Shown in pieces: positions 1-58,549 of a DNA stretch of 64,000 bases. The position numbers and the translations under genes were made by a program. Positions within the stretch are counted from its first letter, which is position 1; each line of letters begins with the position of its first letter. The notes under the pieces are model-generated. The model was not told the origin of the DNA, did not search any database, and saw only the letters and a list, made by a program, of their open reading frames with translations. The stretch comes from Agarophyton chilense (taxonomy: Eukaryota; Rhodophyta; Florideophyceae; Gracilariales; Gracilariaceae): positions 1 to 64,000 of the forward strand of contig JARGXX010000001.1 of NCBI GenBank assembly GCA_030374765.1, given 5' to 3'.

Positions 1-797
1 AAACCCCTAAACCCTAAACCCCTAAACCCCTAAACGCCCTAAACCCCTAAACCCCTAAACCCCTAAAACCCCTAAAACCCCTAAACCCCTAAACCCCTTA
101 AAGCCCTAAACCCCTAAACCCCTAAAACCCCTAAACCCCGCCCTAAACCCCTAAGCCCTAAAACCCCTAAACCCCTAAACCCCTAAACCCCTAAAACGCC
201 CTAAAAACCCCTAAAGCCCTAAACCCCTAAACCCCTAAACCCCTAAAACCCCTAAAACCCCTAAACCCCTAAACCCCTAAACCCCTAAAACCCCTAAAAC
301 CCCTAAACCCCTAAAGCCCCTAAAACCCCTAAACCCCTAAACCCCTTAAACCCCTAAACCCCTAAAACCCCTAAAACCCCTAAACCCCTAAACCCCTAAA
401 CCCCTAAACCCCTAAACCCCTAAACCCCTAAACCCCTAAAACCCCTAAACCCCTAAAACCCCTAAACCCCTAAACCCCTAAAACCCCTAAACCCCTAAAA
501 AACCCCTAAACCCCTAAAACCCCTAAACCCCTAAAACCCTAAACCCCTAAAACCCCTAAAACCCCTAAAACCCCTAAACCCCTAAACCCCTACGCCCTAA
601 ACCCCTAAAACCCCTAAACCCCTAAAACCCCTAAAACCCCTAAAAACCCCTAAAACCCCTAAAACCCCTAAACCCCTAAAACCCCTAAACCCCTAAACCC
701 CCTAAAACCCCTAAACCCCTAAAACCCCTAAAACCCCTAAACCCCTAAAACCCTTAAACCCCTAAAACCCCTAAACCCCTAAACCCCTATAACCCCT
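1..797. repeat. Terminal telomere repeat tract (CCCCTAAA / CCCCTAAAA)
   Basis: Nearly uninterrupted C-rich repeats, mostly CCCCTAAA with many CCCCTAAAA units and rare variants such as GCCCTAAA, CGCCCTAAA and CCCTTAAA. The C-rich strand reads 5' to 3' from the left, which places the chromosome terminus at position 1 (established telomere polarity). The mixed 8/9-base unit suggests a telomerase template that permits slippage. The tract stops abruptly at 797 where the first, truncated 349-bp element begins. Confidence 0.97.
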
Positions 798-3700
798 GAA
801 CAGTTGCAAGTCGATTAGTACCTTAAATGGAAACGTCGCAAGTCCATAAGTCAAGCCAATATGAGTACGTTTAGCTCAGTGGTTAATATTTGTTAATATT
901 TTCCACAAGTCGTGGGTTCAATTCCCATTGTTTGCAGGACAATTACAATTAGGAGTAGCGCCCCTAATATCATGTAATTAGCTTAATGACGAGGTAACAC
1001 TTGCAATTAAGGTTTGGCCACCCCTAATTAGCAAATTAAGTTCCTCCAGAGCACAGCGACGCCGCACATTCCCACCGCATTTCTTAACACCTAAACCCCG
1101 TTCGCGGAATAGAAAAATGCCGTCGCCAACCAAGTACCCTTAAGGGGAACAGTTGCAAGTCGATTAGTACCTTAAATGGAAACGTCGCAAGTCCATAAGT
1201 CAAGCCAATATGAGTACGTTTAGCTCAGTGGTTAATATTTGTTAATATTTTCCACAAGTCGTGGGTTCAATTCCCATTGTTTGCAGGACAATTACAATTA
1301 GGAGTAGCGCCCCTAATATCATGTAATTAGCTTAATGACGAGGTAACACTTGCAATTAAGGTTTGGCCACCCCTAATTAGCAAATTAAGTTCCTCCAGAG
1401 CACAGCGACGCCGCACATTCCCACCGCATTTCTTAACACCTAAACCCCGTTCGCGGAATAGAAAAATGCCGTCGCCAACCAAGTACCCTTAAGGGGAACA
1501 GTTGCAAGTCGATTAGTACCTTAAATGGAAACGTCGCAAGTCCATAAGTCAAGCCAATATGAGTACGTTTAGCTCAGTGGTTAATATTTGTTAATATTTT
1601 CCACAAGTCGTGGGTTCAATTCCCATTGTTTGCAGGACAATTACAATTAGGAGTAGCGCCCCTAATATCATGTAATTAGCTTAATGACGAGGTAACACTT
1701 GCAATTAAGGTTTGGCCACCCCTAATTAGCAAATTAAGTTCCTCCAGAGCACAGCGACGCCGCACATTCCCACCGCATTTCTTAACACCTAAACCCCGTT
1801 CGCGGAATAGAAAAATGCCGTCGCCAACCAAGTACCCTTAAGGGGAACAGTTGCAAGTCGATTAGTACCTTAAATGGAAACGTCGCAAGTCCATAAGTCA
1901 AGCCAATATGAGTACGTTTAGCTCAGTGGTTAATATTTGTTAATATTTTCCACAAGTCGTGGGTTCAATTCCCATTGTTTGCAGGACAATTACAATTAGG
2001 AGTAGCGCCCCTAATATCATGTAATTAGCTTAATGACGAGGTAACACTTGCAATTAAGGTTTGGCCACCCCTAATTAGCAAATTAAGTTCCTCCAGAGCA
2101 CAGCGACGCCGCACATTCCCACCGCATTTCTTAACACCTAAACCCCGTTCGCGGAATAGAAAAATGCCGTCGCCAACCAAGTACCCTTAAGGGGAACAGT
2201 TGCAAGTCGATTAGTACCTTAAATGGAAACGTCGCAAGTCCATAAGTCAAGCCAATATGAGTACGTTTAGCTCAGTGGTTAATATTTGTTAATATTTTCC
2301 ACAAGTCGTGGGTTCAATTCCCATTGTTTGCAGGACAATTACAATTAGGAGTAGCGCCCCTAATATCATGTAATTAGCTTAATGACGAGGTAACACTTGC
2401 AATTAAGGTTTGGCCACCCCTAATTAGCAAATTAAGTTCCTCCAGAGCACAGCGACGCCGCACATTCCCACCGCATTTCTTAACACCTAAACCCCGTTCG
2501 CGGAATAGAAAAATGCCGTCGCCAACCAAGTACCCTTAAGGGGAACAGTTGCAAGTCGATTAGTACCTTAAATGGAAACGTCGCAAGTCCATAAGTCAAG
2601 CCAATATGAGTACGTTTAGCTCAGTGGTTAATATTTGTTAATATTTTCCACAAGTCGTGGGTTCAATTCCCATTGTTTGCAGGACAATTACAATTAGGAG
2701 TAGCGCCCCTAATATCATGTAATTAGCTTAATGACGAGGTAACACTTGCAATTAAGGTTTGGCCACCCCTAATTAGCAAATTAAGTTCCTCCAGAGCACA
2801 GCGACGCCGCACATTCCCACCGCATTTCTTAACACCTAAACCCCGTTCGCGGAATAGAAAAATGCCGTCGCCAACCAAGTACCCTTAAGGGGAACAGTTG
2901 CAAGTCGATTAGTACCTTAAATGGAAACGTCGCAAGTCCATAAGTCAAGCCAATATGAGTACGTTTAGCTCAGTGGTTAATATTTGTTAATATTTTCCAC
3001 AAGTCGTGGGTTCAATTCCCATTGTTTGCAGGACAATTACAATTAGGAGTAGCGCCCCTAATATCATGTAATTAGCTTAATGACGAGGTAACACTTGCAA
3101 TTAAGGTTTGGCCACCCCTAATTAGCAAATTAAGTTCCTCCAGAGCACAGCGACGCCGCACATTCCCACCGCATTTCTTAACACCTAAACCCCGTTCGCG
3201 GAATAGAAAAATGCCGTCGCCAACCAAGTACCCTTAAGGGGAACAGTTGCAAGTCGATTAGTACCTTAAATGGAAACGTCGCAAGTCCATAAGTCAAGCC
3301 AATATGAGTACGTTTAGCTCAGTGGTTAATATTTGTTAATATTTTCCACAAGTCGTGGGTTCAATTCCCATTGTTTGCAGGACAATTACAATTAGGAGTA
3401 GCGCCCCTAATATCATGTAATTAGCTTAATGACGAGGTAACACTTGCAATTAAGGTTTGGCCACCCCTAATTAGCAAATTAAGTTCCTCCAGAGCACAGC
3501 GACGCCGCACATTCCCACCGCATTTCTTAACACCTAAACCCCGTTCGCGGAATAGAAAAATGCCGTCGCCAACCAAGTACCCTTAAGGGGAACAGTTGCA
3601 AGTCGATTAGTACCTTAAATGGAAACGTCGCAAGTCCATAAGTCAAGCCAATATGAGTACGTTTAGCTCAGTGGTTAATATTTGTTAATATTTTCCACAA

Positions 3701-5287
3701 GTCGTGGGTTCAATTCCCATTGTTTGCAGGACAATTACAATTAGGAGTAGCGCCCCTAATATCATGTAATTAGCTTAATGACGAGGTAACACTTGCAATT
3801 AAGGTTTGGCCACCCCTAATTAGCAAATTAAGTTCCTCCAGAGCACAGCGACGCCGCACATTCCCACCGCATTTCTTAACACCTAAACCCCGTTCGCGGA
3901 ATAGAAAAATGCCGTCGCCAACCAAGTACCCTTAAGGGGAACAGTTGCAAGTCGATTAGTACCTTAAATGGAAACGTCGCAAGTCCATAAGTCAAGCCAA
4001 TATGAGTACGTTTAGCTCAGTGGTTAATATTTGTTAATATTTTCCACAAGTCGTGGGTTCAATTCCCATTGTTTGCAGGACAATTACAATTAGGAGTAGC
4101 GCCCCTAATATCATGTAATTAGCTTAATGACGAGGTAACACTTGCAATTAAGGTTTGGCCACCCCTAATTAGCAAATTAAGTTCCTCCAGAGCACAGCGA
4201 CGCCGCACATTCCCACCGCATTTCTTAACACCTAAACCCCGTTCGCGGAATAGAAAAATGCCGTCGCCAACCAAGTACCCTTAAGGGGAACAGTTGCAAG
4301 TCGATTAGTACCTTAAATGGAAACGTCGCAAGTCCATAAGTCAAGCCAATATGAGTACGTTTAGCTCAGTGGTTAATATTTGTTAATATTTTCCACAAGT
4401 CGTGGGTTCAATTCCCATTGTTTGCAGGACAATTACAATTAGGAGTAGCGCCCCTAATATCATGTAATTAGCTTAATGACGAGGTAACACTTGCAATTAA
4501 GGTTTGGCCACCCCTAATTAGCAAATTAAGTTCCTCCAGAGCACAGCGACGCCGCACATTCCCACCGCATTTCTTAACACCTAAACCCCGTTCGCGGAAT
4601 AGAAAAATGCCGTCGCCAACCAAGTACCCTTAAGGGGAACAGTTGCAAGTCGATTAGTACCTTAAATGGAAACGTCGCAAGTCCATAAGTCAAGCCAATA
4701 TGAGTACGTTTAGCTCAGTGGTTAATATTTGTTAATATTTTCCACAAGTCGTGGGTTCAATTCCCATTGTTTGCAGGACAATTACAATTAGGAGTAGCGC
4801 CCCTAATATCATGTAATTAGCTTAATGACGAGGTAACACTTGCAATTAAGGTTTGGCCACCCCTAATTAGCAAATTAAGTTCCTCCAGAGCACAGCGACG
4901 CCGCACATTCCCACCGCATTTCTTAACACCTAAACCCCGTTCGCGGAATAGAAAAATGCCGTCGCCAACCAAGTACCCTTAAGGGGAACAGTTGCAAGTC
5001 GATTAGTACCTTAAATGGAAACGTCGCAAGTCCATAAGTCAAGCCAATATGAGTACGTTTAGCTCAGTGGTTAATATTTGTTAATATTTTCCACAAGTCG
5101 TGGGTTCAATTCCCATTGTTTGCAGGACAATTACAATTAGGAGTAGCGCCCCTAATATCATGTAATTAGCTTAATGACGAGGTAACACTTGCAATTAAGG
5201 TTTGGCCACCCCTAATTAGCAAATTAAGTTCCTCCAGAGCACAGCGACGCCGCACATTCCCACCGCATTTCTTAACACCTAAACCCC
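798..5287 (+). mobile_element. Tandem array of a 349-bp tRNA-derived, telomere-linked short retroelement (12 full copies plus 1 truncated)
   Basis: An exact-looking 349-bp period runs through this tract. Element boundaries can be set: 5' end at GTTCGCGGAATAG (first at 1100), 3' end at CACCTAAACCCC (first at 1099). Full copies are 1100-1448, 1449-1797 and so on to 4939-5287; the outermost copy (798-1099) lacks its first 47 bp and abuts telomere repeats directly, while the innermost 3' end runs into telomere repeats. Each unit carries Pol III A- and B-box-like motifs at tRNA spacing and has no long ORF. Its termini match the Penelope-like element: GT(T/A)CGCGGA(A/G)TAG plus TGCCGTCGCC at the 5' end, and GCGACGC(A/C)GCACA plus a CCTAAACCCC-type end at the 3' end. 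I infer a non-autonomous, SINE-like element mobilised by the neighbouring reverse transcriptase. A plain satellite is the alternative. Confidence 0.85.
872..925 (+). promoter_or_regulatory. Pol III internal promoter-like boxes (A box and B box) in the 349-bp unit; repeated every 349 bp
   Basis: TAGCTCAGTGG (about 873) fits the A-box consensus and GGTTCAATTCC (about 915) fits the B box; the 43-base spacing is that of a real tRNA. The T-stem pairs GTGGG with CCCAT. The D-stem partner, anticodon arm and acceptor stem do not pair, so this is a tRNA-derived head and not a functional tRNA. It would drive transcription rightward through the unit. Confidence 0.7.
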
Positions 5288-6586
5288 TAAACCCCTAAAT
5301 CCCCTAAAACCCCTAAACGCCCTAAAACCCCTAAACCCCTAAACCCCTAAAACCCCTAAAACCCCTAAAACCCCTAAAACCCCTAAGCCCTAAACCCCTA
5401 AAGCCCTAAACCCCTAAACCCCTAACGCCCTAAAACCCCTAAACCCCTAAACCCCTAAAACCCCTAAACCCCTAAAACCCCTAAACCCCTAAACCCCTAA
5501 AACCCCTAAAACCCCTAAACCCCTAAACCCCTAAAACCCCTAAAACCCCTAAAACCCCTAAACCCCTAAAACCCCTAAACCCCTAAAACCCCTAAACCCC
5601 TAAACCCCTAAACCCCTAAAACGCCCTAAAACCCCTAAACCCCTAAACCCCTAAACCCCTAAACCCCTAAACCCCTAAAACCCCTAAACCCCTAAACGCC
5701 CTAAACCCCTAAAACCCCTAAACCCCTAAACCCCTAAACCCCTAAAGCCCTAAACCCCTAAAACCCCCCCTAAACCCCTAAAACCCCTAAAACCCCTAAA
5801 CCCCTAAACCCCTAAACCCCTAAACCCCTAAACCCCTAAACCCCTAAACCCCTAAACCCCTAAACCCCTAAACCCCTAAACCCCTAAACCCCTAAACCCC
5901 TAAACCCCTAAACCCCTAAAACCCCTAAACCCCTAAACCCCTAAACCCCTAAAACCCCTAAACCCCTAAAACCCCTAAAACCCCTAAACCCCTAAACCCC
6001 TAAAACCCCTAAAAACCCCTAAAAAAACCCCTAAACCCCTAAACCCCTAACCCCTAAACCCCTAAACCCCTAAACCCCTAAACCCCTAAACCCCTAAACC
6101 CCTAAAACCCCTAAACCCCTAAACCCCTAAACCCCTAAACCCCTAAAACCCCTAAAACCCCTAAACCCCTAAACCCTAAACCCCTAAAACCCCTAAAACC
6201 CCTAAAACCCCTAAACCCCTAAACCCCTAAACCCCTAAACCCCTAAACCCCTAAACCCCTAAAACCCCTAAAACCCCTAAACCCCTAAACCCCAAAACCC
6301 CTAAACCCCTAAACCCCTAAACCCCTAAAACCCCTAAAACCCCTAAAACCCCTAAACCCCTAAAACCCCTAAACCCCTAAACCCCTAAACCCCTAAACCC
6401 CTAAACCCCTAAACCCCTAAACCCCTAAACCCCCTAAACCCCTAAAACCCCTAAACCCCTAAAACCCCTAAACCCCTAAAACCCCTAAAACCCCTAAAAC
6501 CCCTAAAACCCCTAAACCCCTAAACCCCTAAACCCCTAAAACCCCTAAACCCCTAAACCCCCTAAACCCCTAAACCCCTAAACCCC
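5288..6586. repeat. Internal telomere repeat tract between the short-element array and the Penelope-like elements
   Basis: Same CCCCTAAA/CCCCTAAAA repeat as the terminus, with the same C-strand orientation. It is bounded on the left by the 3' end of the innermost 349-bp copy and on the right by a 5'-truncated Penelope-like element that begins mid-ORF1 at 6587. The arrangement suggests telomerase healed the chromosome after the Penelope insertions and before the short elements arrived. Confidence 0.95.
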
Positions 6587-6946
6587 TTTGTATCTTCTCT
6601 GAATGATAAGAAGATACAAGCCACAATAGCGAGCGGTCTAGGTAGCTACATAAAGAACACCAAAAAGAAAGCTGACCTCCTGAAGAAATCCGCGCAATCG
6701 GCTGATGAAGAGGGGGCCCCAGAAGGGGTCGATCAGACGCGGAAGGAGCTAGCAGCCCTTAGAAATAGAATTAGTGTTTTGGAGAGTTCTCGTAAGAATA
6801 ATCCCCCCAAAGCTCCAAAAGCCCCTAATAAACAAAAGCCCCTAAAGGGCAGGGCTAAAGCAGCGGGGAAAAGTAGTGTAAAGCCTAATCCGAAGCCGAA
6901 AAACGGAAAGGCAGGCGCCGCCGGACGGGGCGCCAGGCAAAATTAA
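6587..6946 (+). pseudogene. ORF1 C-terminal fragment of the truncated Penelope-like copy
   Basis: Corresponds to residues from about 177 to 295 of the ORF1 protein at 9119-10006. The 5' part, including start and promoter, is missing because the element is truncated at the junction with telomere repeats. The lysine-, proline- and alanine-rich C-terminus is retained unchanged, as is the putative frameshift region into the RT frame (6898-6934). With no start codon of its own it is not expected to be made. Confidence 0.85.
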
Positions 6947-7071
6947 ACCGTTCCAGGCCAAGGAAGCCCCGTTCCTTCTCCTGCGAGTTCAAATATAACC
7001 CACCGGTTGGAATCAAAGACGAGGAAGTACCTTTTGAAGTTAAAAAGGTACTCTCCGTCGGTGGTGGGTTC

Positions 7072-8697
7072 ATGCTTCGAACTCCATTAAAGGAATGCCT
7101 TGAAGATACAGTGGATCCCCTCTTTAAGGCACTAGGAACGGGGACAGGGAGAATGGTTCATCCCCTAGCTATGCGAGTGACACGGAAGTTTGAGAGAGAA
7201 CTCACTCGTATTGAGGATGACATTCCCCCAGCCTTGCATCGAACGTTGATGCGAGGTATTAAGTACATGAAGACGAAGGACTGGGTCGTCAAACAAGCCG
7301 ATAAGAACCTCGGACTCACACTTATGAGCCGAGAGTTCTACGACGACCTTGTGCGCAAGGAGATTCGTGAGGGTGCATTCTCCGAGGTAAGCTCATTCCC
7401 CCATGGAAGGCTCCTCGGTAACCTCAACGCAATCTTGCTGGCATGTAATCTGGGGAGTAAATTCACAGATGAAACGCTAGAATACGCTTTAGGCGCCAAG
7501 TTCCCGGCACCCTTCTATGTACTACCGAAGATTCACAAGCCTACGGTGAAGTCTAGACCGATCACGGCGTCACACTCGTACATCACGTCGGGGTTGTCTA
7601 GACAACTTAGCACCATTCTCAACAAGGAGGTGCAAAAGATTCCGGCTATAACAGTTAATAGCTGGCAAACCGTAAGGCAATTGGAACATATAGAGCTCCC
7701 GTCAGACTGTGTCTTCTTGACGTATGACGTGGAGCGATGTTACCCCAGCATCGATATCAGAGACGCCATAAGAACTCTGTTACATGAATTGCCTCACATA
7801 TTCATGGCAAACAAAGGCTTCTGGTGTCGTGCTTTGGAGTTCATCATGTTTAACAACTATGTAACAGATGGACAGGGTGTACATCGACAGCTTATTGGTA
7901 CAGCAACTGGAACACCGGTAGCTCCAGCATTTGCTAACCTTTATTTGTTCTTTAAGTTTCGAGGAATCTTCTTGGACTTTGTAAGCAAGATCATCATCAA
8001 TCGCCGCTATATTGATGATGGACTTGTGATACTCAGAGATAGGGCAACTGCGGAGGCTCTCATGCATAGATTGAACACCTGTTCAAACCTGTCTATGACA
8101 TGGGACATCAGCTCCAAAAAAGCAGTCTATCTTGATTTGGAGATATATAAAGGAAGGAGGTTTATGTTTCATAACATTGTGGACATTCGGGTATACACAA
8201 AGCCCATCTCCAAGTTCCTATATCTCCATGGAAAGTCCAACCATCCCACGCATACTTTGTCAGGAATCGTGAAAGGAGAAATGATAAGATATCTCCGTAA
8301 CACTTCCGATAAACATACGTGGGAGGCCAAAGTAAGCATCCTATTCCGAATGTTAGCGAATCGTGGATACACAGGACAGCATCTACGGGCTGCTTTGGAA
8401 TATGTGTCTTACCAAGACAGGGCGAAATATCTTGAGAAGTTCGTCAAACCATCTCCAGACTTGGGAGGATGGGTAGTCTGCAGATTCCATCCTCGCATTA
8501 AGATGTTCTGGCGCCGCTTCAAGGAACTAATGGAAGTTCAAGTCCCGCGAAGTGGAATCCAAGAGAAATGGCCACGTACTCTTGTCTTCAGACGAGGTAA
8601 TGGAGTAGCTCGCCATGTCATAAGTGCTATTGCGAAAGGAGCAAAGTCTTCGGACTTAGCCAATAGCACTCAAAACCAAACTAATGGAACCAATTAG
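7072..8697 (+). CDS. Penelope-like reverse transcriptase (outer copy)
   Basis: 541 residues from the first ATG. RT motifs in order: KIHKP near residue 153, YDVERCYPSID near 221 (first catalytic Asp), GTATGTPVAPAFANLYL near 274, YIDDG near 313 (catalytic Asp pair), then a YLDLEIYKG block and YTKPISKFLYLHG, all typical of Penelope-like RTs, which are related to telomerase RT. No GIY-YIG endonuclease follows, as in the telomere-attached endonuclease-less class known from rotifers and fungi. It differs from the inner copy by one residue seen (Ser for Arg at about 129). The frame is open upstream of the ATG back to 6889, overlapping ORF1. The copy is intact, but its promoter and ORF1 start are lost. 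Confidence 0.92.
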   Translation: MLRTPLKECLEDTVDPLFKALGTGTGRMVHPLAMRVTRKFERELTRIEDDIPPALHRTLMRGIKYMKTKDWVVKQADKNLGLTLMSREFYDDLVRKEIREGAFSEVSSFPHGRLLGNLNAILLACNLGSKFTDETLEYALGAKFPAPFYVLPKIHKPTVKSRPITASHSYITSGLSRQLSTILNKEVQKIPAITVNSWQTVRQLEHIELPSDCVFLTYDVERCYPSIDIRDAIRTLLHELPHIFMANKGFWCRALEFIMFNNYVTDGQGVHRQLIGTATGTPVAPAFANLYLFFKFRGIFLDFVSKIIINRRYIDDGLVILRDRATAEALMHRLNTCSNLSMTWDISSKKAVYLDLEIYKGRRFMFHNIVDIRVYTKPISKFLYLHGKSNHPTHTLSGIVKGEMIRYLRNTSDKHTWEAKVSILFRMLANRGYTGQHLRAALEYVSYQDRAKYLEKFVKPSPDLGGWVVCRFHPRIKMFWRRFKELMEVQVPRSGIQEKWPRTLVFRRGNGVARHVISAIAKGAKSSDLANSTQNQTNGTN

Positions 8698-9118
8698 AAA
8701 TGACCAACTGTCCAAGAACGGGGCTAAAAACCCCACTCTGGGCTTAGTTAAGTTAGTAATGTTCGTTTCATTAGATAGGGAGCAACATAAGTAGAGCAGT
8801 GCTTGGGCCATAGGAGGCTATGTAAGAAGCCGTGGAGAGCTCTCCACCTCTCTTCCAACCTTCTCATCCCAACATAAGGCACTGAGGAGTCATAAAGACG
8901 AAAGCGCTCTGCCACATCGTTCACTTCACCCCGCTTCCCCTCCCTTTCCCTTTCCCCCTCCCCTTCCGGCTTCAAGGGCGTCCTAGTCCTTAAGCAGTCT
9001 CTCTCTCTCCCCCCCCTTACATTCTGCGCGACGCAGCACACTTTCAACCACCTTACTCAATCCCTAAAACCCCTGTACGCGGAGTAGGTGCCGTCGCCGA
9101 TCACAAATCTCTTTCGCA

Positions 9119-10006
9119 ATGCCTCGTCGTGCAATCGTCAGACGTGCACAAGAGGAAGAGGTCGATGAAATCGAGCCAGTCCAGGAAACTCTCCTAGGCG
9201 ATAAGCCGGAGTGTACGGACGAAATGCTCTTCGACTTCACGAAACCACTCTTAATAAAAGTTTGCGCTCCCTTTCGTAAACAGATTCAAGTAGTGGATGA
9301 GACGATCGCTCGCAGAACAGTCTATGTGAGCCAATTGATGAAGCATGCTGAAGAGGATACGATACCGAAATCTATCGTGGTACCCCGTATGCCTCAGCTT
9401 CAAAGCGCTCAGATAGACAAATACAGCTCGCAGTTCAAACAACTTTCGGAAAATTTTGCGAAACAATTTCTGAAACTTCTTATTCAAGCCAAACTGGACG
9501 AAGTCCGTGAGCTTAAAAAGTCTCGAAGGAAACTACTCGAAGAAGCTTTCGAAAGTTTGGAGGAGGCGCTTACGGAGGGCCTCATTTGCCTTTCGTACGT
9601 CACCAATGAACAAACCAAGAACCTCTGTGAAAGGTTCAAGGAAATGTTTGTATCTTCTCTGAATGATAAGAAGATACAAGCCACAATAGCGAGCGGTTTA
9701 GGTAGCTACATAAAGAACACCAAAAAGAAAGCTGACCTCCTGAAGAAATCCGCGCAATCGGCTGATGAAGAGGGGGCCCCAGAAGGGGTCGATCAGACGC
9801 GGAAGGAGCTAGCAGCCCTTAGAAATAGAATTAGTGTTTTGGAGAGTTCTCGTAAGAATAATCCCCCCAAAGCTCCAAAAGCCCCTAATAAACAAAAGCC
9901 CCTAAAGGGCAGGGCTAAAGCAGCGGGGAAAAGTAGTGTAAAGCCTAATCCGAAGCCGAAAAACGGAAAGGCAGGCGCCGCCGGACGGGGCGCCAGGCAA
10001 AATTAA
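9119..10006 (+). CDS. ORF1 protein of the Penelope-like element (coiled-coil, basic C-terminus)
   Basis: 295 residues, starting 44 bp from the element's 5' end in a suitable context (GCAATGC). The N-terminus is acidic and Arg-rich, the middle (about 60-160) is rich in charged and Leu residues compatible with coiled coil, a short heptad-like stretch lies near 228-243 (LRNRISVLES), and the last 50 residues are Lys/Pro/Ala/Gly-rich and strongly basic. No zinc knuckle or RNA-recognition motif is visible. By analogy with ORF1 proteins of other retroelements it may bind element RNA or multimerise at chromosome ends; that is inference. Its 3' end overlaps the open RT frame by 58 bases, in the -1 frame. 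Confidence 0.8.
   Translation: MPRRAIVRRAQEEEVDEIEPVQETLLGDKPECTDEMLFDFTKPLLIKVCAPFRKQIQVVDETIARRTVYVSQLMKHAEEDTIPKSIVVPRMPQLQSAQIDKYSSQFKQLSENFAKQFLKLLIQAKLDEVRELKKSRRKLLEEAFESLEEALTEGLICLSYVTNEQTKNLCERFKEMFVSSLNDKKIQATIASGLGSYIKNTKKKADLLKKSAQSADEEGAPEGVDQTRKELAALRNRISVLESSRKNNPPKAPKAPNKQKPLKGRAKAAGKSSVKPNPKPKNGKAGAAGRGARQN
9958..9994 (+). promoter_or_regulatory. Candidate -1 ribosomal frameshift signal between ORF1 and RT
   Basis: In the ORF1 frame the codons AAA AAC (9959-9964) are preceded by G, giving GAAAAAC, a near-match to the classic AAAAAAC slippery heptamer. Nine bases later GGCGCC (9974-9979) can pair with GGCGCC (9989-9994) to make a six-pair GC stem. The RT frame is -1 relative to ORF1 and is open from 9949, so slippage here would give an ORF1-RT fusion. 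The first base of the heptamer is not ideal, and independent initiation at 10132 remains possible. Confidence 0.45.
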
Positions 10007-10131
10007 ACCGTTCCAGGCCAAGGAAGCCCCGTTCCTTCTCCTGCGAGTTCAAATATAACCCACCGGTTGGAATCAAAGACGAGGAAGTACCTTTTGAAGT
10101 TAAAAAGGTACTCTCCGTCGGTGGTGGGTTC

Positions 10132-11757
10132 ATGCTTCGAACTCCATTAAAGGAATGCCTTGAAGATACAGTGGATCCCCTCTTTAAGGCACTAGGAACG
10201 GGGACAGGGAGAATGGTTCATCCCCTAGCTATGCGAGTGACACGGAAGTTTGAGAGAGAACTCACTCGTATTGAGGATGACATTCCCCCAGCCTTGCATC
10301 GAACGTTGATGCGAGGTATTAAGTACATGAAGACGAAGGACTGGGTCGTCAAACAAGCCGATAAGAACCTCGGACTCACACTTATGAGCCGAGAGTTCTA
10401 CGACGACCTTGTGCGCAAGGAGATTCGTGAGGGTGCATTCTCCGAGGTAAGCTCATTCCCCCATGGAAGGCTCCTCGGTAACCTCAACGCAATCTTGCTG
10501 GCATGTAATCTGGGGAGGAAATTCACAGATGAAACGCTAGAATACGCTTTAGGCGCCAAGTTCCCGGCACCCTTCTATGTACTACCGAAGATTCACAAGC
10601 CTACGGTGAAGTCTAGACCGATCACGGCGTCACACTCGTACATCACGTCGGGGTTGTCTAGACAACTTAGCACCATTCTCAACAAGGAGGTGCAAAAGAT
10701 TCCGGCTATAACAGTTAATAGCTGGCAAACCGTAAGGCAATTGGAACATATAGAGCTCCCGTCAGACTGTGTCTTCTTGACGTATGACGTGGAGCGATGT
10801 TACCCCAGCATCGATATCAGAGACGCCATAAGAACTCTGTTACATGAATTGCCTCACATATTCATGGCAAACAAAGGCTTCTGGTGTCGTGCTTTGGAGT
10901 TCATCATGTTTAACAACTATGTAACAGATGGACAGGGTGTACATCGACAGCTTATTGGTACAGCAACTGGAACACCGGTAGCTCCAGCATTTGCTAACCT
11001 TTATTTGTTCTTTAAGTTTCGAGGAATCTTCTTGGACTTTGTAAGCAAGATCATCATCAATCGCCGCTATATTGATGATGGACTTGTGATACTCAGAGAT
11101 AGGGCAACTGCGGAGGCTCTCATGCATAGATTGAACACCTGTTCAAACCTGTCTATGACATGGGACATCAGCTCCAAAAAAGCAGTCTATCTTGACTTGG
11201 AGATATATAAAGGAAGGAGGTTTATGTTTCATAACATTGTGGACATTCGGGTATACACAAAGCCCATCTCCAAGTTCCTATATCTCCATGGAAAGTCCAA
11301 CCATCCCACGCATACTTTGTCAGGAATCGTGAAAGGAGAAATGATAAGATATCTCCGTAACACTTCCGATAAACATACGTGGGAGGCCAAAGTAAGCATC
11401 CTATTCCGAATGTTAGCGAATCGTGGATACACAGGACAGCATCTACGGGCTGCTTTGGAATATGTGTCTTACCAAGACAGGGCGAAATATCTTGAGAAGT
11501 TCGTCAAACCATCTCCAGACTTGGGAGGATGGGTAGTCTGCAGATTCCATCCTCGCATTAAGATGTTTTGGCGCCGCTTCAAGGAACTAATGGAAGTTCA
11601 AGTCCCGCGAAGTGGAATCCAAGAGAAATGGCCACGTACTCTTGTCTTCAGACGAGGTAATGGAGTAGCTCGCCATGTCATAAGTGCTATTGCGAAAGGA
11701 GCAAAGTCTTCGGACTTAGCCAATAGCACTCAAAACCAAACTAATGGAACCAATTAG
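10132..11757 (+). CDS. Penelope-like reverse transcriptase (inner, full-length element)
   Basis: 541 residues from ATG 10132. It carries the same ordered RT motifs as the outer copy: KIHKP, YDVERCYPSID, GTATGTPVAPAFANLYL and YIDDG, followed by YLDLEIYKG and KPISKFLYLHG. The catalytic aspartates are present, so the enzyme looks functional. The in-frame sequence upstream of this ATG (9949-10131) is open and encodes a protein-like segment ending VLSVGGGF, so the true RT product probably starts earlier or is fused to ORF1 by frameshifting. No GIY-YIG domain follows. It is expected to copy element RNA onto telomere 3' ends and may also mobilise the 349-bp elements. Confidence 0.93.
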   Translation: MLRTPLKECLEDTVDPLFKALGTGTGRMVHPLAMRVTRKFERELTRIEDDIPPALHRTLMRGIKYMKTKDWVVKQADKNLGLTLMSREFYDDLVRKEIREGAFSEVSSFPHGRLLGNLNAILLACNLGRKFTDETLEYALGAKFPAPFYVLPKIHKPTVKSRPITASHSYITSGLSRQLSTILNKEVQKIPAITVNSWQTVRQLEHIELPSDCVFLTYDVERCYPSIDIRDAIRTLLHELPHIFMANKGFWCRALEFIMFNNYVTDGQGVHRQLIGTATGTPVAPAFANLYLFFKFRGIFLDFVSKIIINRRYIDDGLVILRDRATAEALMHRLNTCSNLSMTWDISSKKAVYLDLEIYKGRRFMFHNIVDIRVYTKPISKFLYLHGKSNHPTHTLSGIVKGEMIRYLRNTSDKHTWEAKVSILFRMLANRGYTGQHLRAALEYVSYQDRAKYLEKFVKPSPDLGGWVVCRFHPRIKMFWRRFKELMEVQVPRSGIQEKWPRTLVFRRGNGVARHVISAIAKGAKSSDLANSTQNQTNGTN

Positions 11758-12134
11758 AAATGACCAACTGTCCAAGAACGGGGCTAAAAACCCCACTCTG
11801 GGCTTAGTTAAGTTAGTAATGTTCGTTTCATTAGATAGGGAGCAACATAAGTAGAGCAGTGCTTGGGCCATAGGAGGCTATGTAAGAAGCCGTGGAGAGC
11901 TCTCCACCTCTCTTCCAACCTTCTCATCCCAACATAAGGCACTGAGGAGTCATAAAGACGAAAGCGCTCTGCCACATCGTTCACTTCACCCCGCTTCCCC
12001 TCCCTTTCCCTTTCCCCCTCCCCTTCCGGCTTCAAGGGCGTCCTAGTCCTTAAGCAGTCTCTCTCTCTCCCCCCCCTTACATTCTGCGCGACGCAGCACA
12101 CTTTCAACCACCTTACTCAATCCCTAAAACCCCT
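11758..12134 (+). other. 3' UTR of the Penelope-like element with hairpin and polypyrimidine tract
   Basis: 377 bp of non-coding sequence; the outer-copy equivalent is 8698-9074. It contains GGGG-CTAAAAA-CCCC (11780-11794), a hairpin whose loop and 3' arm read like a telomere unit, then a CT-rich tract (about 11998-12078) and a terminal TCCCTAAAACCCCT complementary to the telomere G-strand. The segment GCGACGCAGCACA near 12088 is shared with the 3' end of the 349-bp element. It probably acts as the RT recognition and priming end. Confidence 0.6.
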
Positions 12135-12555
12135 AAAACCCCTAAACCCCTAAAACGCCCTAAACCCCTAAACCCCTAAAACCCCTAAACCCCTAAAACC
12201 CCTAAACCCCTAAACCCCTAAAACCCCTAAACCCCTAAAACCCCTAAACCCCTAAACCCCTAAACCCCTAAAACCCCTAAACCTAAACCCCTAAACCCCT
12301 AAACCCCTAAACCCCTAAACCCCTAAAACCCCTAAACCCCTAAAACCCCTAAAGCCCTAAACCCCTAAACCCCTAAAACCCCTAAAACCCCTAAACCCCT
12401 AAACCCCTAAAACCCCTAAACCCCTAAACCCCTAAACCCCTAAAACCCCTAAACCCTAAACCCCTAAAACCCCTAAACCCCTAAACCCCTAAAACCCCTA
12501 AAACCCCTAAACCCCTAAACCCCTAAAACCCTAAAAACCCTAAACCGTAAAACCG
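12135..12555. repeat. Innermost telomere repeat tract and telomere-subtelomere boundary
   Basis: CCCCTAAA/CCCCTAAAA repeats that become irregular from about 12530 (ACCCTAAAAACCCTAAACCGTAAAACCGCC) and then stop. Everything to the right is non-telomeric, so this is the oldest surviving telomere of the chromosome, onto which the Penelope elements were added. Confidence 0.9.
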
Positions 12556-24514: not shown

Positions 24515-25402
24515 TCCTGTTTAAAACGGGAAACAACCGGGGAAAAAGAGTAAAACCCCGTAAACCCAGGTATTTCTCATTCTGTAAAACCGATACACCC
24601 CTGAAAACCCCGATGAAAACCCTTTAAACCGATTAAACCGGGTATTTGTTAAACCATAAATCCGATAAAACCCTTAAAACCCAAATAAAAACCCTTTAAA
24701 CCTCAAAAACACATTTTCGAGTTTCGTCAATCCTTATGAAAACCTTTAAAACCTGGAAAACACAATTGCTTCTATTCTAAAACCCCTGAAAACCATGAAA
24801 AACATGGTAACCCTTTTAAACCCAATCTTAAAACCTTGAAAAACCCTAAAACCAAAAAAAGCTCTCTACAAAACATAGAAAACACAAAAAACCTCGTTAA
24901 ACACATTTCCCGGTTTCGCGTTCTCCTTCGAAAAACTAATTCCAAATTCCTAAAACCGCGTAAAACAATACGAAAACCGCACTTAAACCGAAAAACCATC
25001 CCTATAGTTATAGTAGAAAGAACCCCTAAACCCTAAACAATCTGTTCACCACGCATTCGTACTATACTGGAACTTGACGTCTCGACTCTAGACCCCTAAA
25101 ACCCCTAAAATCCAATAAACGCAAAGCTTCCCCTAAAACCCGTAAAGCCCACCAGCCCCTAAACAATGTTTTCCTCTCCGTAAATAAAAAATCCCATAAA
25201 GGTAAAGTTTCCCCTAAACCCCCTGAACCCCTGAACCCCTGAACCTGTAAAACCCCTAAAACCCCTACACAATGTTTTCCTCTCCGTAAATTCAAAATCC
25301 CATAAAGGTAAAGCTTCCCCTAAAACCCCTAAACTCCTAAACCCCTGAAACCTGTAAAAGCCCGTACACAATGGTTTCCTGTACGAAAACGTAAACTCCC
25401 GT
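24515..25402. repeat. Degenerate interstitial telomere-like belt
   Basis: Continuous C/A-rich sequence of the form AAACCCC(T/G)TAAA with many variants (AAAACCCTTTAAACC, CCCCTGAAAACC), in the same C-strand orientation as the terminal telomere. From about 25080 it becomes closer to CCCCTAAA and contains a repeated unit, CAATG(T/G)TTTCCTCTCCGTAAA followed by an AAAATCCCATAAAGGTAAAG type segment and TTCCCCTAAA, at about 25165, 25268 and (partial) 25368. I infer an old telomere or subtelomeric array decayed by point mutation. Confidence 0.8.
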
Positions 25403-26262: not shown

Positions 26263-26589
26263 AGATGAGTTTGGTATGGCAACTGTCACAAGTTCATACA
26301 CACCCGTGGTGTCTCAGACACCCGTTTTGTCTCAGACACCCGTTTTGTCTCGGACAACCTCCATTTTTGGCACCTTCTATCGCGCTTTTCTAGTGTCGAT
26401 CAGACTTGCATTTGCGGTGTACTGAGGCCTGCTATTCGGTAGATTTAATCAAAATACATGTCTGGCTGCTTGACCTGCGCCACAGCATAATTTTTACAAT
26501 TTTTTGTCTGGCCGGCCCTGTTTTCAACTCAGACACAGACATCAAAAAATTCATTGATTTTTCAGCATGCCAAAACACCAATATATTCA
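26263..26589. repeat. Repeat B, copy 1 (about 327 bp)
   Basis: Matches 38813-39143 almost exactly. It starts AGATGAGTTTGGTATGGC and ends CACCAATATATTCAG. It contains a short tandem of an 18-bp unit (TCTCAGACACCCGTTTTG, about 26323-26355). It lies exactly between two A copies, so the order here is A-B-A, resembling two terminal repeats around a short body. Confidence 0.75.
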
Positions 26590-38812: not shown

Positions 38813-39143
38813 AGAGATGAGTTTGGTATGGCAACTGTCACAAGTTCATACACACCCGTGGTGTCTCAGACACCCGTTTTGTCTCAGACACCGGTTTTGT
38901 CTCGGACAACATCCATTTTTGGCACCTTCTATCGCGTTTTTCTAGTCTCGATCAGACTTGCATTTGCGGTGTACTGAGGCCTGCTATTCGGTAGATTTAA
39001 TCAAAATACATGTCTGGCTGCTTGACCTGCGCCACAGCATAATTTTTACAATTTTTTGTCTGGCCGGCCCTGTTTTCAACTCAGACACAGACATCAAAAA
39101 ATTCATTGATTTTTCAGCATGCCAAAACACCAATATATTCAGG
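38813..39143. repeat. Repeat B, copy 2 (about 330 bp)
   Basis: Almost identical to 26263-26589, including the 18-bp tandem and the CACCAATATATTCAGG end. Here it is separated from repeat A copy 3 by about 460 bp of unrelated sequence, unlike the A-B-A arrangement at 25.4-27.4 kb. Confidence 0.75.
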
Positions 39144-46313: not shown

Positions 46314-49300
46314 TTGACGACGCCCGAGGCGTCTCCACCTCGCTCCCCGGTCACAATCCTCACGAGGAAACAGGCCGTCTCAGAAGTGGACTCTGAACAC
46401 TTTGGTGTTCTACGTCGACCGTGGAAACGTGTTCTTAACCGCCAGTTCCCGGATAGGGTCTTAGTAATTGCCAAGCGCAATTACAAGGTGTATGCCGACC
46501 TTGGCCTTTCTACCCAGTTTATGGTTCGAGTCCTTACTGTTTTGGACACAGGTGCTGGTCCGAATTTCATCGTGGAGTCGCTGCTGCCCCTGCCCTTTCG
46601 GTCTCAGATCCGCCTTGGCGTGGCGCCCGACGTCGTGGACGCGAATAACAACCCGTTGTCAACGGTTGGAACCGTCGCTCTCGCCGTTCGCTTGGGCTCC
46701 TTCGTGGTGAAACTCGACTTTATTGTATGCCGGAAATTGGCTGCCCCCATCATCTTGGGATGTGACTTCTGTGACAGATTCGTTGACGCCATAAGGCCCC
46801 GCTTAAAGCGTGTTGAGATGGAAGACGGCTCGTCGGTCCCGATTGTCCGTCGTCCGCTGCGGCGTGCCTCCAAGAAGCACGTACCGCTCCCTGCCGCGCA
46901 GGAACCTCCACCCGCTTCTCGGGAGTCTACCAAGCTCCGCGTGGCTGCGTCTGTCCGAATCCCGCCAGAGTCCCAAGTATGGGTGTGTGTTACTTCCCGT
47001 CAACACGGTTTACGAGTCATTCAGCCTCTTTCATCTCTGTACGATGGATATCAACTCGCCGTGGCGAATGGAGTCGCGCAGATTGTCCCAGACAAGCCGT
47101 TCACCGTGCTCGTTGCCAATCTGGGCTCAACCCCCCAGTCACTGGTGAAAAACCAAGTTAATGGATCGGTAATGCCTCACCCCACCGCGATGGTCCCCAC
47201 TAGGCTGACCGCTGCCGAAGTCCTTGGTCTCGTTCACTCTAAGGAGGGGGAGGAAGCTGCCGTCCAATCACCGAATGATTCGGAATCGCAACCTGCCGAA
47301 ACAGAAAAGAAGCCCGTTCCCACGAGGTACGACCGGGTAGACCCCGTGAAAGAACTCGAGGAACTCGACCTCGGTCATGTACCGGAGTCACACCGTGAAA
47401 GTCTGCGTGAGATGTTACGGGAGTTTACCACAATGTGGGATGGCTCTCTTGGTGAGATAAATACAACGGAACACCGGATAGATTTATTGCCGAACACCCG
47501 ACCGGTGGCTCAACACCCTTACAGGGCAGGCCCCAAGGCTCGAGAAGAGGAACAGTTCCAAGTTGAAAAAATGCTCCGAGCTGGAGTGATCGAACCAGCT
47601 CAGTCGCCGCGGGCATCCCCAGTGGTACTGGCTCCGAAACCCGATGGGTCCTGGCGCTTTTGAATCGACTACCGTCGCTTGAATGATACTACCGTCAAGG
47701 ACGTGTATCCGATCCCACGAATGGATGAGTACATCGACTCTCTCGGCACTGCTACCGTGTTCACGGCTTTGGACGCCAATTGGGGATATTGGCAGGTTCC
47801 CGTTAGGGAGGAGGACCAAGATAAGACTGCGTTTGTCTGTCATTCGGGACTCTACCGTTTCAAACGGATGCCTTTTGGTCTAACCAATGCTCCCGCTACC
47901 TTTCAGCGTGCTATCGACATTTTGTTGGCCCGCTTTAAGTGGCATACTTGCCTCGTCTATTTGGACGATATCATTGTATTCTCAGACAATCTGGATGACC
48001 ATCTCACCCAAGTCAGGGACATAATGACCACTCTACGTGACGCTGGAACAACCCTTAAACTGAGGAAATGTGAGTTCTTTACCGATACTGTGAAGTATCT
48101 CGGGCACATTATCCGTCCTGGACGTGTAATGATAGAGGAAGCTCGAGTGAGGTCCCTTCGCAAGGCGAAAGAACCCGCTACCCAGACGGAACTGCGCTCC
48201 TTTCTAGGATTGGTCAACGTCTACCGACGGTTTATCCCTAACTTCGCTGACATCGCGGCCCCCTTGAACGCGCTTCTGCGGAAAGGTCAACCACCTAAAC
48301 TGGACCCCTTTACGTCCGCCCAGACGGATGCTTTTAACTCCCTTAGGGAGGCTGTCACATAAGCACCGATTTTATCGTTACCGAAACCCGGACTACCGTT
48401 TTCCGTGGACACGGACTCTAGCGACTACCAGGTAGGCTGTGCGCTCTTTCAAACTACTCCCGAAGGAGAACGCACACCCATTGGGTACTGGTCACGCTCG
48501 CTCAATGTCCACGAGCGGAACTACTCCGTGTCGGAGAAGGAGTGCCTCGCAGTTGTGTGGGCCCTCTCTACACTCCGCCCCTACCTCATGGGTGTGCACT
48601 TTACCGTTTACACGGATCACTCGTCCCTACGAGGGCTCATGACCATCTCGGAGCCGTCAGGCCGCTTAATGCGTTGGAGACTCCGCCTCGCGGAATATGA
48701 CTTTGAAGTGATCTACAAGAAGGGCACTCAGAACGCGCAAGCGGACGCGCTCCTGCGTTTACCCACGAATGGGGAAGCTCTAGCCGTCGATGACGAGGAT
48801 ATACCTTGCTTCGCCGTAGACGATGGAACACCGGGAAACCCGGATTGGTTACAAGATAAATGGAACGAAAGCCCGGAATCAGACGATGATATTGACGCAT
48901 TGTACGTCTCGGACGATTCATAGAAACCCCCGGAGGAGATGGTCAGAGAACAGCAGGGTGACCCCTTCTGTACGAAGATTCGCGCCTGGCTTAATGGCGG
49001 TGCACAACTCCCTTTCGAGGTGAACGATCTTGGATACCTCGTCAGGACGGTTCAGTCATCCCCACAAGTCGTGGTGCCGCATACTCTACAGTCTAGAGTT
49101 TTGCATCTATCGCACTATGGGAAACTTGGTGGACACGCCGGTGGACGGAAACTATACCTCACTTTGCGAAGGAACTTCTACTGGCCCGCCCTGGCGGTGG
49201 ATTGCTACGCAAGGGTGCGGTTTTGTACCGAATGTGCTAAGAATCGGGTGAAACTTCGCAAGTACTCAACGAAGTTGAAACTATTCCCGGCACGGGCTCC

Positions 49301-51986
49301 TCTCGAGTTTGTCGCCATTGACATCCTCGGCGAGCTTCTCACCACAAGACGTGGGCTTAAGTTTTTACTCGTTATCACGGATCGTTTCTCAAAACTGGTT
49401 CGGACCGTACATTTACGGAATATATCCGCTTTCACGGTTGCACAAGCATTTGTAACCCATTGGGTATTCGTCTACGGCCCGCCGGTTAGTCTTCTATCCG
49501 ATAACGGAAAACAGTTCGCATCGCGATTCTTCGAGGACATGTGCAGGATTCTTGACATCAAGAACCTGTTCACAACAACCTATCACCCCCAGTGTAATGG
49601 GCAAGTGGAGCGGTTTAACCGAACGCTATTAGCGTCTCTCCGTTCTTACGTTGCCGACCACCCAAAGACATGGGATTTATATACCGACGCCTTGACGTTC
49701 GCGTACAATACGCAGGTACACCGTACTACGGGCTTGACTCCATTCGAACTGGTCTTGTCCCGCCCTCCGCCCGCTGTCGCGTTAGAACCCCAGCCCACGC
49801 TGGATGCGTTCCCTTCCGGGAAGGATTATCGCCACAGGTAAAAAGAGTGGCTTACGAAGCTGATCCCGGTCGCCCGAAGCTCGATGGCTCGCGCCCAAGC
49901 CGCTTACAAGCGTGATTTCGACTCTCGCGTACGCGGTAAGGCCCCGCCAATCAAAGCCGGTGACTTCGTGTTCGTCCGTAAGGAGTACTGGAACCCTGAA
50001 CAGGAAAAGAAGCACAAGCTTTCTTCCGTCGCGGACGGTCCTTACAAGGTCATTTCGGTGAAAGACGACACCATCGTGGTGGAAATTGTCGACGCTCATG
50101 AGCGGATCTCCCGCGACCGCGTCGTACTCGCCCCTGCACCGACGTTGGAAGTAACCGAAATGGGTCAACAATCTCTCTCTGAGGATGATGGTGCTCGGCA
50201 CACAACGGTGGCTCAGCCCACTGCCGTGGTTTCCAGACCTTCTGCGTTACCACACCCTACCCGGGGACTCACTGACTTGCCGATCTTATCGGACCAAGGC
50301 CAGAATGGCCTCTCTTCTCTCACGCCACGGCGCGGTGTCTACCCCCGCCCGTTGGGCGTTTCAACCACTCCCCATGCCGTTCCGTCTCAGGAGGGGGAGG
50401 AGGCTCATAACTCTCGTCGAGAGACGGAAACCGCTTCGTCGCGTCATGACAACCGTGGTGCACGGACTCCTGGACACACCAGCAAGAACAACGGTGACCC
50501 GGACGTCCCGTCTACCGACGTGCCATTTCCACATCTGCGCGCTACAGCCGTTGCTGAACCCTCTATGGGAAGCGCCACCGCATCTGCGTCTGATCGCACT
50601 CCCCACGGGGACTCTACTCGACAGGACGCACCACGTAGTGGAAACCCCCTCGCCGAAGCGAAACCGAATTCGTCGCAGGATGCTGTTCGCCCTCGCGATA
50701 CTGGACCGGCTAGGCCGTCGAGCGTTGACCCGCAGCCCGTGGGTCACGGTTCGTCGACACCAGCTACGCTGGAAAACTTAGAGAATGCCCTCGCAGGCCC
50801 CTCTAAGCCGAATCGATCGGAAGTGGTCCCTCGTACTCTACGGCAGGACACACCGGCTAAGCCGGGCAAGAACACCGTAGCAGACGGGAGATTCACACCC
50901 AGCACGCTTGATGCTGGTTCAGAACCCGTGCGAAGTGGCGGACGCACTCCGAGTGTCGCGGTTGACCCCGACAGCGTTGTCGAAGGCGCACCGGTCACCC
51001 CGGAGAATGTGCCCGTCAATAACGGAAGCACCTCGTCGCCGAGTGAAGTTGAACCCTCGAAAGGGATAGTTGAGGACGAGCTCGCTCCCCGCAGGGGTTC
51101 CTCGCCGCGCACTTCGCAGCCCGTTGGTGAGGAAGGCACGGTTGACCCGGAGTTGCACGCCCGTCGCGGTACTGTGTCGCTTAAGCGAGCAGACATACCG
51201 GCAGCGCCGTTGCACACGCCCTCACGTGAGGAGGCGGAACGCAGCACTGCGCGGAGTACTCCCAGCCATCAGCCGGACGTGTCACGTGACCAGACGACAC
51301 CTGGCTCGAGAGATACGCCAATCAACGCCAAAGGCGGCTCACCCGGCAAGGCACGACGCCCCGTGATGAAACCGCCTCCCGCGTCAAGTCCAGCTCCGTC
51401 GCGACGGATTTCACCCCGACGACTTGCGGAACGCGACCGCGAAACCCAGCCTTGGGATGAGTCCGCGTTCCCCCGAAGGGTAGCCTCTGCACGAGAACAC
51501 TCGGAAAGCATTTCGACCCAAAAACTGGGAGAATTGCCCCACGGGAAGGCCTCCGGCCGAAGCCGTCGAACTGACGCTCTTCGTCATGACGCCTTGGCGG
51601 AAGCAACCCGCCAAGCGGCCAAGGCAACCCGGAACCCGGTTCGTTCCCCTACCCAGGGCATGGAAAGGCAACGCCAACCCATGGACCCCTCGGGGGAAGG
51701 GCACAGTAGCCCACACGCACCTGCGGACGTACACCGGTTTGGTTCGGTGACGAGTACACCGCAAGGGCGGGAAGTCTACGAGAAGGAGTTCGTGGTCGAC
51801 CACATAGTGGAGCACTCATACCATCCGGATGGTTATATTCAATACCTCGTCCGTTGGTACGGTTTAGGGCCCGAATGGGATTCGGATGAGCCGATGGAAC
51901 ATCTGCCACGTTCGAAGGTGGTGTCATATCACCGCAGAACGCGGACGGGAATCCCGGCATCGGTTGTTAAATCCCAGGTGGGATAA
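46314..51986 (+). pseudogene. pol of the 43-55 kb gypsy element (protease, RT, RNase H, integrase, chromodomain), interrupted by stops
   Basis: A single frame, -1 to gag, with stops at 47661 (TGA), 48360 (TAA), 48921 (TAG) and 49839 (TAA). Domains: aspartic protease VLDTGAGPNFI (about 46540); RT with FTALDANWGYWQVP, FGLTNAPATFQ and VYLDDIIVFS (47.5-48.0 kb); RNase H starting DTDSSDYQVG (48.4 kb); integrase H2C2 zinc site and D-D-E at AIDILGE, LLSDNGKQF and NGQVERFNR (49.1-49.6 kb); a long Ser/Pro/Thr-rich linker; and a chromodomain (EFVVDHIVEHSYHPDGYIQY then LVRWYGLGPEWDSDEP, about 51780-51900). Stops are all within otherwise conserved sequence, so decay is recent. Confidence 0.9.
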
Positions 51987-58242: not shown

Positions 58243-58549
58243 GTCTCACATCCGGAGTGTCTTATCGGAAGTCGGGAGTCTGACTCCTAGTGACCATTGA
58301 CATAAGTCTTTCGTTGCGTATCGTCCTAAGAAGATTTTGGAGAATTATCGCTAGGTTGAGCTTCGTTCTCCCCTTGTCATTTTATCTATTTTTATCTGAC
58401 GGGTTGAGTATTGTCCCTGTCTTGCCGTTCTACTTATCTCTTTGCGAAACCGAACTACACTTATCTGTACGGGCCTTTTTTGGCTACGAGGGACTCCCAT
58501 TTACATTGACTTTTACTGTCAAGTTGGCCCACCGCGTCACACTCCCAAG

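Follow-up and report, generated by a model that had tools for sequence, protein, structure and literature searches.

The 64,000-nucleotide stretch analysed here (the window) forms the left terminus of the 2.29-Mb contig C1 of Agarophyton chilense, a red alga in the Gracilariaceae; the assembly comprises 79.8 Mb in 135 contigs (C-numbers denote these contigs throughout). From the tip inward, it holds a telomere tract, an array of a 349-bp unit, a second telomere tract, a truncated and then a full copy of a Penelope-like element (PLE) that we call PLE1, a third telomere tract and the subtelomere (Table 1). All of these telomeric elements, the 349-bp units and both PLE1 copies alike, have their 5' ends facing the terminus. 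Our analysis makes it quite probable that the unit is a non-coding, non-autonomous telomere retroelement that uses the endonuclease-less reverse transcriptase (RT) of the PLE encoded beside it, being primed by the telomere and capped by telomerase.

The extent and the 349-bp period of the array are as an earlier note on this DNA had given them, and there are no differences among its twelve full units. Each begins GTTCGCGGAATAG and ends CACCTAAACCCC, and the longest open reading frame (ORF) starting with ATG encodes 26 amino acids, so the unit is short and non-coding. Its 3' end is itself telomere-like, as the note had said. The note had also described a tRNA-like head with A and B boxes. The boxes are indeed present, TAGCTCAGTGG at unit base 122 and GGTTCAATTCC at base 165, and none of 20,000 mononucleotide shuffles of the unit reproduces the strict A-to-B pattern (20 of 20,000 reproduce a looser one). 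However, they are found ~120 bp into the unit, downstream of a PLE-like head rather than at the unit start, and the likeness to tRNA is slight: the tRNA covariance model scores 15.9 bits (E 3.1), below its gathering score of 29. ARAGORN finds no tRNA anywhere in the 64-kb window, and a conventional tRNA gene is rejected on that ground. Given this score and the ARAGORN result, 'tRNA-like' is a fair but weak label. Judged from the boxes in the sequence, RNA polymerase III may transcribe the unit.

The unit and PLE1 resemble each other at their ends. The two ends of PLE1 can be aligned, in register, with the first 28 bp and the last ~45 bp of the unit, and a second family, PLE2, has the same end motifs. 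The heads read GTTCGCGGAATAGAAAAATGCCGTCGCC in the unit, GTACGCGGAGTAGGTGCCGTCGCC in PLE1 and GTACGCGAGGTAGTAGCCGTCGCC in PLE2; in all three tails, GCGACGC(C/A)GCACA stands ~15-25 nt upstream of CCTAAA. A scan of PLE1 in 5-bp steps on both strands placed the first 45 bp of the unit best at PLE1 base 1 and its last 60 bp best at the final 60 bp of PLE1. We compared the terminal scores with 5000 dinucleotide shuffles. With PLE1, 12 of the 5000 reach the head score, none reach that of the 60-bp tail, and 37 reach the score that the tail has once its telomere-like end is removed. With PLE2, 10 of the 5000 reach the head score, for which the local match is just 9 bp (GCCGTCGCC), and none reach that of the tail. 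The remainder of the unit resembles PLE1 no more than 100 shuffles do. The match of both termini to a PLE, which the note had claimed, is thus borne out. A relaxed head pattern gave PLE1 (43 matches), PLE2 (8) and one further match belonging to neither, but no third head family; within reach of that pattern, we found no SINE-like element (SINE, short interspersed nuclear element) belonging to PLE2.

The RT ORF of PLE1 matches RVT_1 (E 3.8e-7) and no other Pfam domain. No GIY-YIG endonuclease is found in it at a Pfam limit of E 10 (above 0.1, few matches pass the HMMER filters), nor in the Pfam annotation of the 120 listed of its 213 homologues; among the matches listed, the homologues carry PF00078/PF28514/PF26215. 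An alignment of 36 sequences keeps the RT motifs, including YIDDG, plus a DKN..G motif upstream of the RT core, which we take to be the 'DKG' motif of PLEs. The AlphaFold model of the RT (pLDDT 89) has Candida telomerase as its best PDB match (E 1.6e-9). At chromosome ends, PLE1 copies have their 3' end joined to telomere repeats and their 5' end toward the terminus. Endonuclease-deficient PLEs, in the excerpts of the papers on which we draw here and below, prime at exposed chromosome ends, after which their truncated 5' end receives telomeric repeats (PMC3846280). PLE1 fits three traits of this group: a PLE/TERT-like RT, no GIY-YIG match and end-joined copies. The truncated copy on C1 abuts the full one head to tail and differs from it at 4 of 2487 bases. 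PLE2 shares 70% amino acid identity with PLE1, has a 3.23-kb period and also lies near contig ends; internal fragments related to both families exist.

A PLE with a hammerhead ribozyme in its pseudo-long terminal repeat was considered and rejected: no Rfam family matches the 64-kb window at gathering, and neither a hammerhead nor another known ribozyme appears in the two junction regions, 1400-2200 and 8700-9300, at relaxed E. Viral contigs hold neither a PLE relative nor an exact core of the 349-bp unit. The RT frame is open for ~61 codons upstream of its first ATG (window 9949-10132), in a different frame that overlaps the end of ORF1, and the RT model is confidently folded from 10045, upstream of that ATG; frameshift expression is possible.

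Copies of the unit lie mainly at chromosome ends. We count ~361 unit heads genome-wide (404 pattern matches minus 43 PLE1 heads); DNA searches give lower bounds, positions are those of the first 100 of the 404 matches, and the clusters were pooled from several searches, so that others are possibly missed. Of the 14 clusters found on contigs longer than 500 kb, 12 are within 40 kb of a contig end (C1, C2, C12, C31, C71, C75, C92, C93, C96, C99, C121 and C128, with C31 ~36 kb from its end), and all 12 point their 5' end toward that end. The other two are decayed relics in the interior that do not face the nearer end, in C22 (88% identity, 203 kb inside) and in C6 (80%, 401 kb from the nearer end). 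Apart from these relics, the copies on the long contigs agree with the note's expectation of telomeric copies with 5' truncations toward the terminus. Clusters on contigs of 22-60 kb (C32, C64, C87 and C129) are kept separate because position says less there; the array in C64 takes up the central part of its contig, with no clear orientation toward either end. At least one telomere-capped end, that of C6, has no unit head nearby among the matches listed. C96 and C121 have non-telomeric DNA distal to the units, with the same subtelomeric repeat in both. This repeat, ending TGTAATATATATA, adjoins truncated units at two different unit positions (L071 in C96, L072 in C121).

A 3' end in common with an autonomous partner, as in SINEs, is thus found in the unit, and dispersed copies are not: the clusters on long contigs are largely terminal and mostly tandem. 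We therefore call it SINE-like and not a SINE.

Junctions show how copies meet the telomere. Truncated 5' ends of units are on the distal side, at unit base 48 (C1 and C75), ~150 (C12) and 296 (C93), each with telomere repeats outward; in C128 and C129, the distal end is a full-length unit followed by telomere repeats. Junctions between units read alike in 71 of 74 cases, the other 3 being off by one base in a run. Among 14 junctions of unit tail and telomere (13 pattern sites plus C121), 10 are standard and 4 deviate, with variants CACCAAAACCCC in C2 and C64 and TTAACCCCTAAA in C93. PLE1 behaves similarly. One constant sequence makes up 42 of 42 PLE1-PLE1 junctions, and 5 of 9 PLE1-telomere junctions match it; the remaining 4 have AAA or AAG replacing AAAA (CCCTAAACCCC in C32, C87 and C135; CCCTAAGCCC in C76). 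For PLE2, the tandem junction is CCTAAAACC-TCTA-GTAC in both of the 2 read, a 4-nt gap that fits all 8 tandem heads by coordinates, and the telomere junction is CCTAAAACC-CCTAAA in 4 of 4 read. The last bases of the elements often follow the telomere at telomere junctions, and element-element junctions are nearly constant. Such variation is as expected if the telomere overhang anneals within the RNA, because the overhang would then supply the end.

Short tails point in the same direction. In C99, a bare unit tail of 36-38 nt has telomere repeats on both sides. Four copies that adjoin proximal telomere consist of a tail joined to a more upstream part of the unit: the tail starts at base 317 in C71, 318 in C92, 324 in C2 and 308 in C75, and the upstream joins are at bases 124, 229, 168 and 112, respectively, with microhomology of 0-2 nt. 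In C75, the copy is followed by just a short remnant of telomere, and ~23 kb of unread sequence separates it from the distal array. Altogether, 5 of the 14 tail-telomere junctions break within 17 nt, a clustering at 308-324 that was spotted post hoc. These breaks are at or just 3' of one arm of a predicted stem, which pairs unit bases 19-27 in the head with 306-316 in the tail (GCGACG/CGTCGC; probabilities 0.84-0.98) and persists in 54 of 60 units with a shuffled middle. An RT that started at the tail and met this stem would be expected to break near the 3' arm. In C32, a unit tail with several telomere-repeat-like stretches (L075, 1699-1839) may be a decayed copy, a conversion product or a polishing artefact.

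We propose the following model for the unit, in which its head and tail would be the recognition ends of a PLE and its unrelated middle, with the A and B boxes, may drive a transcript of its own by RNA polymerase III. Arrays would give multi-unit or read-through RNA. The RT would bind this RNA through the common head and tail, which are able to pair through GCGACG/CGTCGC in the predicted fold. The 3' G-rich telomere overhang would then anneal to CCTAAACC, a telomere-like sequence close to the tail, and prime cDNA synthesis, a step supported by the junction data; bases 3' of the annealing point would derive from the chromosome and not from the RNA. Synthesis would run through one or more units and would sometimes stop or jump after the first ~26-42 nt, as the short tails and tail-plus-jump copies support. 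Telomerase would cap the new, often 5'-truncated end, consistent with the telomere repeats distal to truncated copies and with a TERT gene on C73 (100% identity across 1027 compared residues to an A. chilense database protein). Exchange between telomeres would afterwards copy and enlarge arrays, which is supported for some pairs of ends. The note's suggestion of a non-autonomous partner of an endonuclease-less Penelope RT thus gains support from the common termini, the location at ends and the lack of a GIY-YIG match, while mobilisation itself is what we infer from them.

Several observations weigh against this model. The similarity of the heads, taken alone, is modest (12 of 5000 shuffles), and mobilisation of the unit in trans by the PLE RT is read from sequence. 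In the fold search, LINE-1 ORF2p comes second to Candida telomerase with a similar E-value, and PLE RT fragments are also found internally, for example at C97:275627 (96% identity) and C98:1042305. C1 and C75, C2 and C64, and C128 and C129 each have a junction in common, so there are fewer independent events. Three proximal copies stop mid-unit at telomere repeats without a tail (C75 at base 260, C87 at base 57 and C71 at base 228); the priming model does not predict such ends, which may reflect end joining or tail-independent priming. The telomere-like tail is so short that the exact priming base is ambiguous, and sequencing error could be behind part of the run-length variation. As for the stem, some 6-bp head-tail helix also forms in 9 of 60 end-shuffled controls, the whole of PLE1 folds with a different head-tail helix, and covariation lends no support because the stem sequence is invariant in all three families. 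A second helix, between the spacers of head and tail, looks compensatory by eye, but its cognate pairs are no better than shuffles (p 0.25, 0.28 and 0.55), and for this reason we do not claim it. Finally, twelve identical units and arrays of many kb arise more easily by recombination than by one long cDNA.

This last point is the core of another account, in which the unit would be a satellite of the subtelomere that acquired PLE ends in the past and is propagated today by telomere recombination only, through break-induced replication, displacement-loop (D-loop) or circle copying, or unequal exchange. Beyond the identity of the twelve copies, it is favoured by C1 and C75, which are both truncated at unit base 48 and carry similar CCCTATA telomere variants on the distal side of the truncation, and by C128 and C129, which have a four-copy array and its proximal flank in common; D-loop tandem amplification has been argued for the MoTeR2 arrays of Magnaporthe oryzae (PMC7367193). 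However, recombination poorly explains why ends vary to match the telomere at telomere junctions, how a lone 36-38-nt tail came to lie inside telomere, why tail-plus-jump copies have a common right-hand limit and differing left-hand limits, and why the PLE-like termini are kept. We consider it unlikely as the sole process. As a second process, recombination probably also copies and enlarges arrays, because there are long identical arrays and junctions common to different ends.

Telomerase itself is present in the genome, and the unit ends in the telomere-template-like CCTAAACCCC, so TERT rather than the PLE enzyme might copy unit RNA onto chromosome ends. We regard this as very improbable, since the unit matches a PLE at both termini, for which TERT has no known need, and telomerase is bound to its own RNA template (PMC4700185). 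An assembly artefact, whether from long-read errors in telomeres or from misjoined tandem copies, could be read into the run-length indels near the ends of C71, C75 and C2 and into the mosaic of unit and telomere in C32. It is scarcely credible for a unit that is found on many contigs with common boundaries and a common direction, mostly in copies of 100% identity.

Taken together, these observations favour telomere-primed copying of the unit by the PLE RT. Going further, the SINE-like element and the endonuclease-less PLE could form a second end-lengthening system beside telomerase, in which the overhang primes multi-unit RNA internally and the panhandle formed by the predicted stem marks the RNA and sets the early stop; on this wider proposal we find ourselves evenly divided.

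Table 1. Features of the left end of contig C1 (window coordinates)
Feature	Position	Strand	Remarks
Distal telomere tract, CCCCTAAA/CCCCTAAAA repeats	1..797	.	
Most distal copy of the 349-bp unit, 5'-truncated, begins at unit base 48	798..1099	+	
Twelve full 349-bp units, head to tail, no telomere repeats between	1100..5287	+	
Unit head (28 bp; one unit shown), aligned to first 24 bp of PLE1	1449..1476	+	
5' arm of predicted panhandle, unit 19-27, TGCCGTCGC	1467..1475	+	pairing probabilities 0.84-0.98
A-box-like TAGCTCAGTGG, unit 122-132	1570..1580	+	
B-box-like GGTTCAATTCC, unit 165-175	1613..1623	+	
3' arm of predicted panhandle, unit 306-316, GCGACGCCGCA	1754..1764	+	tail breakpoints 308-324 at or just beyond arm
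Telomere-like 3' end of unit, CCTAAACCCC, proposed annealing site of telomere overhang	1788..1797	+	
Interstitial telomere tract (1.3 kb) separating 349-bp array from PLE1	5288..6587 (end approximate)	.	
5'-truncated PLE1 copy, RT ORF 7072-8697	~6588..9074 (start +/- a base or two)	+	
Full-length PLE1, 3060 bp	9075..12134	+	
PLE1 ORF1, 295 aa	9119..10006	+	no Pfam family at E<=0.001; lysine-rich C-terminus
PLE1 RT ORF, 541 aa from first ATG, frame open further upstream	10132..11757	+	RVT_1; no GIY-YIG match
PLE1 tail motif GCGACGCAGCACA, counterpart of tail motif of 349-bp unit	12088..12100	+	
Proximal telomere tract (0.4 kb), adjoins subtelomere	12135..12546	.	

The subtelomere of C1 contains further repeats and genes. 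Genes of long terminal repeat (LTR) retrotransposons (RT, RNase H and integrase) are at 58442-63163 and 48939-51986 of the window, with a weak chromodomain match at 49884-51986. Repeats of ~106 bp, composed of degenerate telomere repeats plus CAATGTTTTCCTCTCCGTAAA, occur at 25156-25363, and similar ones are seen by eye at another end (L083, 3900-4420). An 18-bp tandem repeat, ACACCCGTTTTGTCTCAG, is present at 26300-26356 and 38852-38908 and also in L084 (C111). A large ORF at 31567-37107 matches DEAD/Helicase_C, with a sub-threshold match to OrsD, and by eye a helicase-like gene adjoins PLE2 at another end (L086, C95). Both resemble the telomere-linked helicase genes of fungi.

Parts of this arrangement have precedents. 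Endonuclease-deficient PLEs (Athena of bdelloid rotifers and its fungal, protist and plant kin) likewise combine a PLE-type RT without GIY-YIG, transposition largely at chromosome ends and priming on exposed 3' ends; PLE1 differs from them, as far as the excerpted account goes, in having a short non-autonomous partner and a red-algal host (PMC3846280). The nearest precedent for the logic of the pair is MoTeR2, although it is a longer element served by another enzyme class. MoTeR1 and MoTeR2 are a telomere-specific pair with head-to-tail arrays and 5' truncations joined to telomere repeats, and the RT-less MoTeR2 has both termini, of 860 bp and 77 bp, in common with MoTeR1 (PMC7367193). The MoTeR helper RT, however, has a putative restriction-like endonuclease, whereas the PLE1 RT is without a second Pfam domain; MoTeR2 is ~1.7 kb rather than 349 bp, and TTAGGG tracts separate MoTeR copies where our units abut directly (PMC7367193). 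HeT-A/TART of Drosophila also include a non-autonomous telomere element served by the RT of a partner (PMC4700185). Their RT is of the non-LTR type, in contrast to the PLE-type RT here. Drosophila is without telomerase, and HeT-A is a long element with coding capacity. Like tRNA-derived SINEs, our unit is short and non-coding, has A and B boxes and shares its 3' end with its helper, but that helper is a PLE instead of a long interspersed nuclear element (LINE), both ends are common, and the copies are in telomeres and mostly tandem. The Poseidon PLE of Anolis (PAc) resembles our system in that its copies are in tandem, a multi-copy RNA has been proposed for it, and its reverse transcription starts internally (PMC11167929). 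PAc has an endonuclease and cuts AT-rich DNA, whereas the start site proposed here is telomere-complementary (PMC11167929). Internal initiation by the Poseidon PLE was demonstrated in vitro, at a site non-homologous to the cut DNA (PMC11167929).

Among the matches listed from the open-licence PMC literature, as far as their excerpts go, we found no report that a telomeric PLE has a SINE-like partner or that Gracilaria/Agarophyton carry telomere PLEs. The earlier note had seen here a new kind of telomeric retroelement pair. A telomeric pair with common ends is already known from MoTeR1/MoTeR2; the SINE-like partner and the endonuclease-less PLE helper are what is new. Within the literature searched, the unit would be without precedent both as a SINE-like element specific to telomeres and as one served by a Penelope-like RT.

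Penelope-like RTs and telomerase have a common ancestor, according to the excerpted source (PMC3846280). If our model is correct, the 349-nt template would be a small natural substrate on which to test how such an RT chooses its RNA and its start site and how it works together with telomerase. The helper and parasite logic of LINEs and SINEs would then apply in a third retroelement class, and in the red algae, as well.

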